DNA of 64,000 bases from Alphaproteobacteria bacterium (lineage in GTDB: Bacteria; Pseudomonadota; Alphaproteobacteria; Micavibrionales; Micavibrionaceae): contig JAUHWR010000001.1 of assembly GCA_030427385.1 (NCBI GenBank), forward strand, positions 992,001 through 1,056,000, in the 5' to 3' direction. Positions within the stretch are counted from its first letter, which is position 1, and every line of letters begins with the position of its first letter. The translations under genes were made by a program, and so were the position numbers. The notes under the pieces are model-generated. The model made no database searches and was not told where the DNA came from. It worked only from the letters and a program-made list of their open reading frames with translations. This document shows positions 8,548 to 15,327 of the stretch, one piece after another.

Positions 8548-8868
8548 ATGAATCTTGAACACATATTAAGTCTAGGAAATTTCCTTTGGGTTGTAGGCGC
8601 GGCTATTATCGGTGCTTTATTCTGGATTTTTAAAATCGACAGCACTGTCAAAGAAAGCGCACAGAAGCACAAGTTAAGCGAAAAGCGCCATGATAAGCAT
8701 GAGGAACGGATTGAACGGATTGAACGGACAAATATCCGCGTTGAAACCAAGGTTGACCAGATCGAGGAACGTCAAAAAGAGCAGGTGGAAGATAGTAAAA
8801 AAATCCTAAATTCCATTAATCAAATTCAACTTCATTTAGCGCGTTTCAAAACTAGGGAGATTGATTAA
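8548..8868 (+). CDS. Holin-like protein: one membrane segment plus coiled coil
   Basis: A 106-aa protein beginning immediately after the previous stop. Residues ~10-28 form one hydrophobic helix (FLWVVGAAIIGALFWIF). The rest is a highly charged coiled coil (HKLSEKRHDKHEERIERIER). This layout resembles small phage membrane proteins of the DUF2730 type and class III-like holins placed before endolysins. Within the cassette (membrane protein, this gene, receiver, endolysin, spanins) it is the best holin candidate. The function is inferred. Confidence 0.5.
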   Translation: MNLEHILSLGNFLWVVGAAIIGALFWIFKIDSTVKESAQKHKLSEKRHDKHEERIERIERTNIRVETKVDQIEERQKEQVEDSKKILNSINQIQLHLARFKTREID

Positions 8869-9248
8869 TGCAGGTAGCTTTTATAGATGATGAATCCGCA
8901 AGTTTTACGCTGTTTTGCGCGGTGATTGATGATAATCAGGATTTCCGTGATTTCTTCAAAATTAAGCTTGAGGGAAACATAGACAGTTTCAAAGAAGTCA
9001 GTGAATTTCAAGATAATGGTTATGACGTAGTTTTCACAGATTTAAAGCTTTATGAGACTTTCGGAGTAGACACGATTTACGCACTAAAGAAAAAGACGAA
9101 TGCGCCGATTGTAGTTTTAACAGGTCTTAGCAATATGTCGGCAAGTGAGATGAAAATATTCCTTGATGCAGGTGCAAAGGAAGTCTGGTCGAAAGAGCGG
9201 ATTAATGACCCTGCGTTTTTAACAATGGTTCAAGAGGTGGTGGCATGA
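8868..9248 (+). CDS. Phage-encoded stand-alone CheY-like receiver domain protein
   Basis: The 126-aa product is a complete response-regulator receiver with no output domain. Expected residues are present: acidic pair D21-D22 (CAVIDDNQDF), phospho-acceptor D58 (VVFTDLKLY), T85 (VVLTGLSN) and K109 (VWSKERI), with GAKEV before the Lys. The ATG overlaps the last base of the holin-like gene, and its stop overlaps the endolysin ATG (ATGA). It is therefore embedded in the lysis operon. Receiver domains normally take phosphate from a histidine kinase. What a phage does with one between holin and lysozyme is unknown; timing of lysis by host phospho-signals is a guess. Confidence 0.8.
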   Translation: MQVAFIDDESASFTLFCAVIDDNQDFRDFFKIKLEGNIDSFKEVSEFQDNGYDVVFTDLKLYETFGVDTIYALKKKTNAPIVVLTGLSNMSASEMKIFLDAGAKEVWSKERINDPAFLTMVQEVVA

Positions 9249-10143: not shown

Positions 10144-10312
10144 TCCTAATGCGCTGATACTGCCTGATATAGTCGAATACACACCTGATATTCAGGATAA
10201 AGCCGCAAGTGAAATAGAATTGAATTATTGCCCGATTTTATCGGGTTTTTTTATGCCTGATTACAGCGTGATGCGTGATCAAACAAGAGTTGCAAAAGGA
10301 GAATTAAAGTAA
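10076..10312 (+). CDS. Outer-membrane spanin lipoprotein (Rz1-like)
   Basis: A 78-aa lipoprotein. The signal peptide is followed by the lipobox LSGC (Cys17), so the mature protein would be lipid-anchored in the outer membrane. A Pro/Asn-rich stretch follows (ANTPSNPNA). The gene starts inside the Rz-like gene in a different frame (68-bp overlap). AAAGGAAAAG upstream of the ATG provides a ribosome site. The 3' third contains a strong terminator-like hairpin (10231-10252). Its TAA overlaps the ATG of the next gene. The protein is longer at the C-terminus than minimal Rz1 proteins. Confidence 0.78.
   Translation: MKYAISALMLTVFLSGCANTPSNPNALILPDIVEYTPDIQDKAASEIELNYCPILSGFFMPDYSVMRDQTRVAKGELK
10231..10252 (+). 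terminator. Terminator-like hairpin inside the Rz1 coding sequence
   Basis: CCCGAT-TTT-ATCGGG forms a perfect 6-bp GC-rich stem with a 3-nt loop, followed at once by seven T. It is the form of an intrinsic terminator, yet it lies within the Rz1-like reading frame, upstream of the spike genes. It could attenuate transcription between lysis and spike genes. Confidence 0.55.
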
Positions 10313-10809
10313 TGGCTGATAGTAAAATAAGCGCCTTAACCGATGGCGGGGCTGTTCAAGATACGGATGAATTTATTATCCGAAGAACAACTGGAAATAA
10401 CAAGATAACAGGCGATGAAATTAAGCTTAAAGCTGAATCTGCGCCTGAATTATCCGCAAATTTAAAGGGCGGCGGTTTTTACGCTGAAAATGCAAAAGTA
10501 AAAATTACAGAGCATACAGGCACGACATACACTTTTCTTGCCACAGATACAGGCGGCGTTCATTTATTTAATAATTCGAGTGCCATCACTGTCACATTGC
10601 CGAATGATCTGGCTGTGGGTTTTGTTGTTGATTGCAGGCAAACAGGGATAGGTGACGTCTCTTTCACAGCCGAAGCGGGTGGCTCTCTTGTAAATATTGA
10701 CGATCAAGACACGCTTTCAGGGCAATACGCAGCGGCTTCAATAACAGTTTTAACTAATTCGGACGATGAGTCCGCAGAATATCATCTCGTCGGTCAAACA
10801 AAGGAATAA
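10312..10809 (+). CDS. Phage tail fibre/spike N-terminal-type protein
   Basis: The 165-aa protein starts on the last base of the Rz1 stop (TAATG). The N-terminus ADSKISALTDGGAVQDTDEF resembles the virion-binding starts of many phage tail fibres and spikes. The remainder is beta-rich and Gly/Thr-rich (TGGVHLFNNSSAITV). It lies 3 bp before the large SGNH spike. It may be an adaptor or a short fibre that carries the 919-aa spike; this is inferred from order. Confidence 0.55.
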   Translation: MADSKISALTDGGAVQDTDEFIIRRTTGNNKITGDEIKLKAESAPELSANLKGGGFYAENAKVKITEHTGTTYTFLATDTGGVHLFNNSSAITVTLPNDLAVGFVVDCRQTGIGDVSFTAEAGGSLVNIDDQDTLSGQYAAASITVLTNSDDESAEYHLVGQTKE

Positions 10810-10812
10810 AAT

Positions 10813-13572
10813 ATGCTAATAAATATTAATAATTTAAGTATGGCAGGACAGCGCGGCGGCGGTATCTCTGCGCCTTCCGTTGTATCAGAAAACCTTCAAG
10901 CGCATTATAAGCCGGAGGACAGGTCAACCCTTATAGGGACAGCGCCCGCAATTACGGGATTGTCCGATAAAACAGCCAATGGCTATGATGCCACCCTAAC
11001 CTCAAACTGGGCGCAATTAACCCATGCCGATAAGGGCAGTCATATGTTGCGTGTTGCCTATGATGCATCGAGCAAGCTAGATACAGGCACAGGCACATTT
11101 GGCGATACGTCATTATTTGCCGATGCGGGGGATGCCTTTACCATTTTCTGCGTGGGTACGTATAACGGTAATGGCACGATCTTATCTAAAACCAGTAGCG
11201 CCTTTGGGAATAAACAACTGTTATGCACCTATGAAAGCGGAGAGATTAAAGTCGGCGTGCGCGGCGGGACGACGACGACATTTGTCACAGGCGTAAGCGA
11301 TACACTAACCGCGATTGCTCTGCATTGGGATGGATCGGCATTCACAGCCAGTTACATAAAAGACGGCGAAAGCACATGGACAGATACCACGATTACAATC
11401 GGGGCGCAGTCTGCCGAAGCGGTGAATTTAATATTTGGCTCTCATACAGCCGGTACAAGCTTTCAAATCGAAGGCGAATATGGCGAGATGATGATTTATG
11501 ATGCCGCCTTAACCAGCGAGCAAATGACCCAGATGGCAACCTACATTGCCGCCAATTGGACAAATAAACAATATGACTTCAAAGCGGTTCTATTAGGGGA
11601 TTCTATCGCCCAAGGAATATGGGACGCGCAAGCGGATAGCTCCGCTATGGATTTGGATGTTGCCTTTGCGATTGATGCGAGCGCCTATGTTGAAACAGCA
11701 GAGGAAGGCACAAACGGCGATACCGCGGAAGATTTACGCGATGCCATTGATACGATTTTATCCGGGCATAGCGTCGAAGCCTATCCGACATACTTTATCG
11801 GGCATATCGGCACGAATAACGTCACACAAACCCGCCCTTACTTTGATCCAAATGGAAATGCGAGTGATTTGATTGACGGCTTTGCCGATGATCTGGATTA
11901 TATATTTAATGCCATTACAACGGCGGGTCATAAAATGTTCTTCGGACAAATTCCCTTCTATGACCGCCCTTTACCGGATCCCGAAACAGGCGATAAAGAC
12001 GGCACATGTGTGCGCTTCCAATATTTGGGATCACGCCCCTATAATGAAAATATTATCACGCCATGGCTTGCAGAAAACACCCCCGAATATTGCCATGCGG
12101 ACGGCACACCCTACTTGCAAAACTATGAACTTACCTATGATAGCGACATCATTAGCGATGATGGTATTCACCCAAGCTTTGCGGGATATCAAACTTATTA
12201 CCGCTATATGACGAATGTGGTCGGGAATGTGCTTAAAAATAATACCGCGCCAACACAGCTTGATGAAATTCCGCTATTATGGACACCTGCCGATTCTCAA
12301 TATACGAAGCTTTGGTTAGAAGCTAAAGATGATTATGTAGATGGCACTACGGTGGAATTATGGGATGGGCTTGTAGTCTCAAACGATGGTACGGCGGCAG
12401 GTGCGGATAGGCCATCGTTTAACGCAACTGGATTTGATGGCAGTTTAGGAGCTGTAGATTTCACAACTTCAAATGCTATTACCCTAGATACGAGCGTAAC
12501 GCATTCAACACATACAATTGTATCTCTCGCGGAAGTCAATGATAGCGTTACGCAGAAAACCATTTCTGGCGGAACTAATAACTCTATCCATTTTCATATT
12601 GATGGTAATGAAAAGCTACGGGTTACACAGCAAGCCGTAGCACAAAGAGCGATTAGCTCGGCAAGCATTCCGATTGATACACCAACTTTACTAGGGCTTC
12701 AAACTAAAAATTTAAATACAGGCGTAAGGCTTTTGATTAATGCTGAGGTCGATGGTGATTATGATGGAACGACTGGATTTAGTCAATCTACAACGACAAT
12801 CGGTAATATAGGCACTAAAAACATTGGTTTCAACGGTGGGATGCACAGCATAGGAATTATGAACACTGAGTCTGTAGACTTACGTCAAGCCATGGAAGGC
12901 TACTTCGCCCATGACGCGGGATATGAGGCGTTGTTGCCAGTCGATCACCCTTATAAATCCACGCCGCCTATCGTTCAAACAAATACTTTTTTTGTAGCAG
13001 ATGGGAACTCCATCACAGCGACTCAAGTAATCGGTGCATGGCCTTTAAGAGTAGCAGAGGACGCCCGTGCGTTAGGTATAACAATGACTAATTTCGCGGT
13101 ATCAGGGCAACATACTCAACACATGATTGATGATGGTGTAGCGCAGATTGATGCAGTATTGAGTGGGTCAAAGCCTAATGTACTGGCGGCTATGGAAATT
13201 AGGAATGATCTGTTTATCAATGTTGATACAGCAAGAGCGGCAGTGGATCGCTTCTGGACGTACTGCGATGCCAGACGTTCTGCTGGATGGACAGTGGTGG
13301 CTATCATTCCTCTCAATAGTATTATTGTTGGAAGCACTACATCGGGACTATCTTCGGCGGAATTTGAAGCCGAGCTTGCCGAGGTTGAAACATTGATGTT
13401 AGATGAATGGGAAGACCATGCTGATTATATCGTCAACCCAAGAGATCGTGCGGAGTTATCAGATATGACAGACACGGATTACTCGACGGACGGTACGCAT
13501 TTGACAGAATTAGGTGAACGCATATTAGCAGACGTTCTAACACCTGTTATTGTGGCGGCGGGGGCGGTTTAA
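10813..13572 (+). CDS. Tail spike with two LamG-like and two SGNH hydrolase domains
   Basis: A 919-aa mosaic protein. Residues ~30-250 look like a LamG/concanavalin-type jelly roll. Residues ~255-480 are an SGNH/GDSL hydrolase: GDS at 262-264, the block GHIGTNN and D450-G-I-H453. Residues ~490-720 are a second lectin-like domain ending in VDHPYKSTPP, a common LamG-type ending. Residues ~725-919 are another SGNH domain with GNS in place of GDS (S733), RND, and D893-G-T-H896. SGNH spikes usually remove acetyl groups from surface polysaccharide. By eye, the second half (from about 12250) uses more A/T-ending codons than the first. A remnant of an alternative C-terminus follows directly. Confidence 0.85.
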   Translation: MLININNLSMAGQRGGGISAPSVVSENLQAHYKPEDRSTLIGTAPAITGLSDKTANGYDATLTSNWAQLTHADKGSHMLRVAYDASSKLDTGTGTFGDTSLFADAGDAFTIFCVGTYNGNGTILSKTSSAFGNKQLLCTYESGEIKVGVRGGTTTTFVTGVSDTLTAIALHWDGSAFTASYIKDGESTWTDTTITIGAQSAEAVNLIFGSHTAGTSFQIEGEYGEMMIYDAALTSEQMTQMATYIAANWTNKQYDFKAVLLGDSIAQGIWDAQADSSAMDLDVAFAIDASAYVETAEEGTNGDTAEDLRDAIDTILSGHSVEAYPTYFIGHIGTNNVTQTRPYFDPNGNASDLIDGFADDLDYIFNAITTAGHKMFFGQIPFYDRPLPDPETGDKDGTCVRFQYLGSRPYNENIITPWLAENTPEYCHADGTPYLQNYELTYDSDIISDDGIHPSFAGYQTYYRYMTNVVGNVLKNNTAPTQLDEIPLLWTPADSQYTKLWLEAKDDYVDGTTVELWDGLVVSNDGTAAGADRPSFNATGFDGSLGAVDFTTSNAITLDTSVTHSTHTIVSLAEVNDSVTQKTISGGTNNSIHFHIDGNEKLRVTQQAVAQRAISSASIPIDTPTLLGLQTKNLNTGVRLLINAEVDGDYDGTTGFSQSTTTIGNIGTKNIGFNGGMHSIGIMNTESVDLRQAMEGYFAHDAGYEALLPVDHPYKSTPPIVQTNTFFVADGNSITATQVIGAWPLRVAEDARALGITMTNFAVSGQHTQHMIDDGVAQIDAVLSGSKPNVLAAMEIRNDLFINVDTARAAVDRFWTYCDARRSAGWTVVAIIPLNSIIVGSTTSGLSSAEFEAELAEVETLMLDEWEDHADYIVNPRDRAELSDMTDTDYSTDGTHLTELGERILADVLTPVIVAAGAV

Positions 13573-13725
13573 TCTCGGATATACTAGCCGATCCAAGGAC
13601 GGTTGATGAATTATCAGACGCAACGGATACGGAATATTATAGCGATGGTACGCACCCCACACAGGCGGGGCAAATTGCGTTGGCGGAATACATGCGTCCG
13701 ATTGTTTTAGGGGCGGTTTAATCTC
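13561..13725. repeat. 16-bp direct repeat flanking the displaced spike C-terminus
   Basis: The sequence GGGGCGGTTTAATCTC occurs at 13561-13576, over the stop codon of the spike gene, and again at 13710-13725, over the stop of the remnant. The copies are 149 bp apart. This fits recombination at a homologous 3' end. Confidence 0.8.
13572..13721 (+). pseudogene. Displaced C-terminal fragment of an SGNH tail spike
   Basis: Directly after the spike stop, in another frame, 49 codons plus TAA encode a second version of the spike's own ending. ILADPRTVDELSDATDTE and YYSDGTHPTQAGQIAL align with IVNPRDRAELSDMTDTD and YSTDGTHLTELGERIL of the intact gene, and both end in GAV. There is no start codon or ribosome site, so it is not an independent gene. 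It looks like the old C-terminus left behind after a tip exchange. It carries the DxxH catalytic motif of SGNH enzymes. Confidence 0.75.
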
Positions 13726-14256: not shown

Positions 14257-14404
14257 AGGTTTTTCTTTCTCTGCAAGAGGATTTTGCATGGTTTTGGAGT
14301 TTAACTTTACTAAGAAAAGTGTTGCCACAACTCTTGCAACGAAACAGTTTAATCCTCTTTTGTTTCTTTGAAGGTATTGTGTACCTTTCAAAATATACAC
14401 TCAT
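14249..14404 (-). CDS. Small C2H2-like zinc-finger protein
   Basis: A 51-aa gene read in the frame alternative to the longer open frame. Its ATG overlaps the upstream stop (ATGA), and AGG lies just before it. It has basic flanks (PSKKQKRIKLF) around C23xxC26 in FRCKSCGNTF, then H39 and C44 in LQNHAKSSC, a CxxC-x12-HxxxxC spacing close to a classical C2H2/C2HC finger. This suggests DNA or RNA binding. The downstream gene starts 8 bp inside its 3' end. Being under 60 codons it is easy to miss. Supported by motif and coupling only. Confidence 0.6.
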   Translation of the reverse strand: MSVYFERYTIPSKKQKRIKLFRCKSCGNTFLSKVKLQNHAKSSCRERKTYD

Positions 14405-15327
14405 CCTATAATCTTTCTTTTGTGTTTTTTGAGTTCGTCGATTAATAGGTTTCTTCCCGCTGTTAGAGTTAGTTCCGTCGCGTTCATAAATTCATTTGGT
14501 TGACGTTTAAACCCCTCCAAATCAAGTGTCTCAAAGACAGGTGAAATATCACCGTTTTCATTTATTCTATAGGGTGGTTTATAACTAAGGGCGGTGCCAT
14601 AAGTATTCCCTAATGCCGCGCGCTTTATAGTTGAAACGTTTTGTTCAAAAAGACCATAAAATATATTTTTATTACCATATGGCAACATTTTATAAACTAA
14701 TTGCAGTGCTTTAGCTTGATCTTCACTCATAGTAGAATTATGATTCTTACTACCCATTAATACAGTGCCATGATTTTTTTTATGGCTTTCATTTTCTAAA
14801 TAAGAACAAATTTTTAAATTTTCCAATTTATTATTTGCTCTATTTCCATCTAAATGTGCAACACAATATCTTTTTGGAATATCGCCAATAAAATTTTCTG
14901 CCACAATCCTATGTATTAACTTTCTTTTTTTGTCCAAACAAATTGCCTGATACCCATTTTGTTTTTGAGGCTTTAGATATTTTCCTCTTTTTCCCTTTAA
15001 GTTACCTAAATTGCTTATTTGATAATCATTAAAACCCTTTATTGGCAACCATACCTCCAACGCATCTTTGTTTACATCTCCCTTATCAATGTTTACAAAG
15101 TCGGCGGGTTTGTTTACATCACTCTGCGGGGCGCGGGTGTTCCATTTTTCCAGTAACTCTAGAAAACCTTTTTCCTTATCAACTAAACCTCCCCGAACAT
15201 AAACTACTAACTCACAATCACGATTAAGACACATAAACTGCCAAGGAGCTTTTTCAAAGTAACGCTGTACGGTGCGCTGTCCACAAAACGGACATGGCTT
15301 TAATTCTTCAATCGGTGGGTTATTCAT
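14401..15327 (-). CDS. Lar-like zinc finger fused to NUMOD4-HNH endonuclease
   Basis: A 308-aa fusion. Residues ~8-70 match the small Lar-like zinc-finger proteins common in phages: LKPCPFCGQRTV, a second Cys pair in FMCLNRDCELV and ending WNTRAP. Residues ~92-115 match NUMOD4 (EVWLPIKGFNDYQISNLGNLK), followed by an HNH_3-type core with VAHLDGNRANNKLENLKI (H, N, N). A helical DNA-binding-like part (~195-240) follows. The last ~60 residues look unrelated to homing enzymes. The arrangement suggests an HNH homing endonuclease settled in-frame inside a Lar-like phage gene. Whether the zinc finger alleviates host restriction is unknown. Confidence 0.75.
   Translation of the reverse strand: MNNPPIEELKPCPFCGQRTVQRYFEKAPWQFMCLNRDCELVVYVRGGLVDKEKGFLELLEKWNTRAPQSDVNKPADFVNIDKGDVNKDALEVWLPIKGFNDYQISNLGNLKGKRGKYLKPQKQNGYQAICLDKKRKLIHRIVAENFIGDIPKRYCVAHLDGNRANNKLENLKICSYLENESHKKNHGTVLMGSKNHNSTMSEDQAKALQLVYKMLPYGNKNIFYGLFEQNVSTIKRAALGNTYGTALSYKPPYRINENGDISPVFETLDLEGFKRQPNEFMNATELTLTAGRNLLIDELKKHKRKIIG

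Follow-up and report, generated by a model that had tools for sequence, protein, structure and literature searches.

Directly behind the stop codon of a prophage tail-spike gene, in another reading frame, lies a short segment without a usable start that resembles the end of the spike itself. The locus raises the question of how such a segment came to stand there, and whether the phage could still make use of it. The analysis covered a window of 64,000 nucleotides, the whole stretch of DNA under study, to which all positions refer unless other coordinates are given (Table 1). Module-2 alleles are named S for the spike, T for a second gene in an exopolysaccharide (EPS) locus of the same genome, and R for the remnant.

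Table 1. Coordinates of the spike gene, its modules, the remnant and associated features.
Feature	Position	Strand	Remarks
165-aa protein upstream of spike	10312..10809	+	PHROG 21510 E 9.5e-15, 18179 E 8.6e-11
Tail spike, 919 aa	10813..13572	+	two LamG-like and SGNH/GDSL modules in tandem; Pfam and PHROG matches
Module 1 (LamG1-SGNH1)	10940..12270	+	~95% nt identity with EPS-locus allele; left edge approximate; codon-aligned identity profile
Module 2, allele S (LamG2-SGNH2)	12271..13560	+	exchanged relative to EPS-locus allele T
16-bp repeat, copy 1	13561..13576	+	codes spike GAV-stop, then TCTC; covers TAA 13570-13572
Remnant R	13572..13721	+	start-less 49-codon end of a likely displaced module-2 allele; DxxH intact (SDGTHPTQAG)
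16-bp repeat, copy 2	13710..13725	+	codes GAV-stop of R; covers TAA 13719-13721; putatively ancestral
Convergent gene, 118 aa	13718..14074	-	stop overlaps remnant stop; AGGAG-type ribosome-binding site ahead of ATG
Allele T gene, 928 aa, double-SGNH phage-type spike	C1:1582701-1585487 = L009:7701-10487	-	EPS locus

The remnant and the repeated stop codons

The codons of R occupy 13572-13718 and are followed by a TAA at 13719-13721; the frame is -1 relative to the spike, contains no internal stop, and translates as ISDILADPRTVDELSDATDTEYYSDGTHPTQAGQIALAEYMRPIVLGAV, while the sequence that is R's own begins at 13577 (GGATATAC). Its only in-frame start-type codons, TTG at 13680 and ATG at 13692, both sit close to its end, and R is thus effectively start-less. 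The sequence-only reading had described a start-less homologue of the last 49 residues of the spike, DxxH motif included, and this description is borne out, since the alignment with the spike C-terminus reaches a BLOSUM score of 117, against 51 for the best of 5000 shuffles, and a protein search of the own genome recovers the spike end at 46% amino acid identity (E 1.7e-9). The similarity is far beyond chance. The same search returned three places in all, namely R itself, the neighboring spike and the EPS-locus allele T, to which R is 57% identical (E 2.5e-13), and in the reverse direction the full spike picks up R with an E value of 9e-7. R is somewhat nearer to T than to S, with 82% nucleotide identity to T over 57 bp (E 5.6e-9). 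The Lipase_GDSL family is matched at its very end (positions 183-207, E 0.08), which identifies R as the DxxH-bearing end of a module 2, of which it covers just the last tenth, the catalytic Ser and Asn blocks being absent.

Third codon positions account for 32 of the 66 differences of R from S and for 28 of the 58 from T, an excess that by itself is no proof; together with the stop-free frame, this mostly third-position divergence suggests that R probably coded until recently. A present function is most likely lacking: the segment is apparently no longer translated, though not yet degraded. A terminator or other regulatory role was rejected, as no terminator was found in the region around R and promoter matches there were no better than chance.

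The frame relation also permits a reading in which R is a C-terminal extension of the spike, fused to it by a -1 frameshift or by the gain of a G in the GGGGG run that precedes the stop. The R frame indeed stays free of stops upstream as far as 13521, and a single G added to the run would produce an in-frame fusion. However, inspection by eye of GCG GCG GGG GCG GTT TAA reveals no canonical X_XXY_YYZ slippery heptamer, the G5 run is shorter than a typical phase-variable tract, and the product would carry the end of the SGNH fold twice, the second time without the remainder of a domain. Such an extension is extremely improbable, and the frameshift variant was rejected on the missing slippery motif.

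Identical 16-bp sequences had also been claimed over the two stop codons, and they were recovered exactly there. A search of the 2.19-Mb genome that allowed one mismatch found no further occurrence of the 16-mer, GGGGCGGTTTAATCTC, and for two ends of 170 nt, ~7e-6 common 16-mers would be expected by chance. Copy 2 closes with TTAATCTC, 8 nt that also form the 3' terminus of the convergent gene (AGA GAT TAA on the minus strand). The same 8 nt follow the spike stop at copy 1, but no such gene continues there. Since TTAATCTC belongs to the convergent gene and only copy 2 is followed by the rest of that gene, copy 2 would represent the original context and copy 1 the copied one.

A mosaic spike with a second allele in the exopolysaccharide locus

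The spike combines a family match with the DxxH block of SGNH/GDSL hydrolases. Lipase_GDSL_2 (PF13472) matches two stretches of the whole protein (E 2.9e-14), the best at residues 261-460, corresponding to SGNH1, and module 1 matches PHROG 38537 (tail fiber) with an E value of 2.5e-19. SGNH2 searched alone gives a weak Pfam match below the cut-off (PF00657, E 0.006) and is degenerate by Pfam; the SGNH2 of allele T lies above the cut-off (PF13472, E 1.2e-8) and is accompanied by a weaker Laminin_G_3 match. For module 2, no sequence relative with a solved structure was found, and an AlphaFold model of SGNH2 was discarded at a mean pLDDT of 45.5. As a tail-associated SGNH hydrolase, the spike is probably a polysaccharide O-acetyl esterase. 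The 165-aa protein encoded upstream resembles the C-terminal parts of phage virion-protein families and is probably an attachment or adaptor protein, as judged from its sequence.

The allele T gene is surrounded by genes for a polysaccharide flippase, Poly_export/SLBB and GNVR chain-length proteins, Bac_transf, glycosyltransferases and an NAD-dependent epimerase. No phage genes were found beside it, and it stands alone in the EPS locus. It carries no remnant, and 5 nt separate its stop from the convergent flippase gene. In the codon alignment with the spike, nucleotide identity is ~95% from about 10940 to 12270 and falls sharply at ~12270, in the codons for DEIP, beyond which the module-2 proteins are ~58% identical; among conserved residues, the fraction of identical codons drops from ~0.93 to ~0.35 past this border. 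The abruptness of the mosaic break indicates that module 2 was swapped in its entirety, and R is placed exactly past the right edge of the exchanged module.

A module common to a prophage spike and a host EPS-locus gene is of greater interest than the scar itself. One may speculate that spike modules pass between the prophage and the host EPS locus, with the solitary EPS-locus gene serving as exchange partner or reservoir and R being the visible scar of such a trade, although we regard this as doubtful. If it were true, the ester-cleaving tip of the phage would follow the host polysaccharide through the exchange of modules with the EPS locus.

None of the 104 family, 142 order, 385 class and 398 phylum genomes searched yielded an intact spike whose end was of the R type, nor was an intact R allele found in GTDB contigs, viral contigs, phages or plasmids; the GTDB contigs yielded a single distant match of 36 aa in Leptolyngbya. 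The parental R allele is thus one that we infer. For neither spike module did the same collections yield a close relative outside the own genome, and the absence of an intact R consequently says little. Three prophages of the same family have tape measure, baseplate and collar genes in common with this one, at about 29-50% identity; no SGNH spike was found in them.

Origin of the remnant

R is likely to be the displaced 3' end of a former module-2 allele of the spike. Two marks of a displaced C-terminus are present, a start-less fragment homologous to the end of the adjacent gene and independent evidence of exchange at ~12270. The homology, the mosaic border, the repeat, the overlap with the convergent gene and the missing start codon are features of the DNA as it stands; the order of events and the source of S are what we infer from them. 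The ancestral spike would have joined module 1 to module R and closed with GGGGCGGTTTAA, where the stop codons of the spike and the convergent gene would have overlapped. Allele S would then have replaced R from the border of modules 1 and 2 (~12270) through the 3' end. The right junction would be non-allelic, in that after GGGGCGGTTTAATCTC the new sequence meets R just before its conserved ELSD codons. Two routes to this junction may be envisaged. A tandem duplication of the R end, in a unit of 149 bp (GGATATAC...TTTAATCTC), may have come first, whereupon the first R copy would have been overwritten by S as far as the GC-rich 16-mer. Alternatively, a single template switch or illegitimate crossover may have accomplished both. 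The remnant fits a recent evolutionary scar: the module would have been exchanged imprecisely, and its old 3' end either left in place or duplicated. The sequence-only reading had proposed a tip exchange by recombination, and it stands insofar as a C-terminal part was swapped, with a border at ~12270, and the old 3' end was left behind; the unit exchanged, however, was the whole LamG-SGNH module 2 of ~430 aa rather than a tip of 49 aa.

Tandem tail-fiber genes are common in phages, and R might instead be the deletion scar of a second tandem SGNH spike gene, of which only the last 49 codons are left. The missing start and the abrupt beginning in mid-domain would suit such a deletion. It would nevertheless require that two genes ended in an identical 16 nt while their remaining ends share 53% DNA identity, and that the last 8 nt of the convergent gene had been copied behind the first spike. 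Because displacement accounts for the 16-nt identity and the copied 8 nt in fewer steps, it is preferred, and the deletion of a tandem gene is considered unlikely.

A collapse of two prophage haplotypes, one with spike S and one with spike R, at the 16-mer during assembly is less probable still. Haplotype mixtures do occur; nonetheless, no computed result speaks for one, 16 bp is below usual assembly overlaps, and the junction of TCTC with GGATATAC offers no homology that could guide a false join. The assembly, moreover, comprises 3 contigs and is 100% complete.

In a diversity-generating retroelement, too, the 3' end of a tail gene has a homologous segment next to it, and a short stretch of identity marks the 3' boundary. 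On that reading, the variable repeat would be the end of the spike, R would serve as its template repeat and the 16-mer would act as the IMH; the homologous segments, the short GC-rich 3' identity and the location at a tail-protein C-terminus agree with this arrangement. In contrast to such elements, the differences from remnant to spike are not specific to adenines, as they fall on 15/38 A, 16/30 C, 21/42 G and 14/31 T, and no reverse transcriptase of this kind is present: the sole RVT_1 match in the genome lies 660 kb away and is a DRT9 defense protein (PADLOC E 1.5e-156). The probability of this mechanism is close to nil, and it was excluded on both counts.

Prospects of switching back and comparison with known systems

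The proposal that the phage could switch receptor or acetyl-ester specificity by recombining the remnant back into the gene did not hold up. Since the repeat lies at the 3' edge of both segments, recombination between the 16-mers only deletes R and leaves the spike protein unchanged. R might still be kept as a reserve tip, because its frame and DxxH motif are intact and two in-phase identities of 8 bp exist, TTATCAGA at 13456/13611 and GGTACGCA at 13492/13647, both at an offset of 155, from which chimeric ends could conceivably arise by deletion. Against this, the 16-mer copies are direct and not inverted, and in-phase homology elsewhere does not exceed 8 bp, a length too short for efficient RecA-type exchange. 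Any change would be one-way and limited to the last ~25-37 residues, and R cannot supply the Ser and Asn blocks that it lacks. We therefore judge a reserve function very improbable.

Alternative C-terminal segments beside a tail-fiber gene are familiar from the invertible tips of Mu gin and P1 cin, and the modular exchange of phage receptor-binding proteins is known. Unlike the Mu and P1 tips, the present locus carries direct repeats and a fragment devoid of a start and of most of the module. Analogous to orphan CdiA-CT and Rhs-CT segments, R is a start-less C-terminal fragment behind an intact gene, in a family that swaps its C-terminal part by recombination. In CdiA and Rhs, the sequence shared with the main gene (VENN/DPxGL) lies at the 5' edge of the orphan and enables reloading, and a deletion that loaded an orphan C-terminus onto the main gene has been observed (PMC3150448). 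Those orphans encode a whole toxin domain with an immunity gene and may form arrays; contrary to them, R is a single copy, a tenth of a module in length, without a 5'-edge sequence matching the intact gene and with the 16-mer at its 3' edge. The likeness to orphan Rhs C-termini drawn by the sequence-only reading is thereby retained for the start-less fragment and the C-terminal exchange and given up for the position of the shared sequence.

SGNH domains are known in receptor-binding proteins of temperate phages, e.g., those of Klebsiella prophages (PMC13123978), and that paper cites gp63.1 of E. coli phage G7C as an example of a tail fiber or spike with such a domain. The spike described here resembles them as a predicted tail-associated SGNH hydrolase and differs from them in its two tandem LamG-SGNH modules. 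What the locus provides is a base-resolution record of a tail-spike module exchange, in which one border falls between two modules and the other on the stop codon, and the old end stayed behind; together with the EPS-locus allele, it documents a modular SGNH spike with three module-2 alleles in one genome. The remnant reveals no new switching mechanism; the details are new, and the kind of event is already known.

Several neighboring and distant genes are worth recording in their own right. About 0.7 kb from the remnant, a minus-strand gene (14401-15327) encodes a Lar restriction-alleviation domain fused to NUMOD4 and HNH_3 homing-endonuclease domains. On the plus strand, a 126-aa response-regulator receiver-domain protein (8868-9248; PF00072, E 1.8e-7) is encoded immediately ahead of the phage lysozyme gene, an unusual site for a CheY-like protein. 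The DRT9 reverse transcriptase gene (L012:925-2508, minus strand, around C1:1665637) is adjoined by an ORF of 339 aa that, by eye, resembles a tyrosine recombinase.
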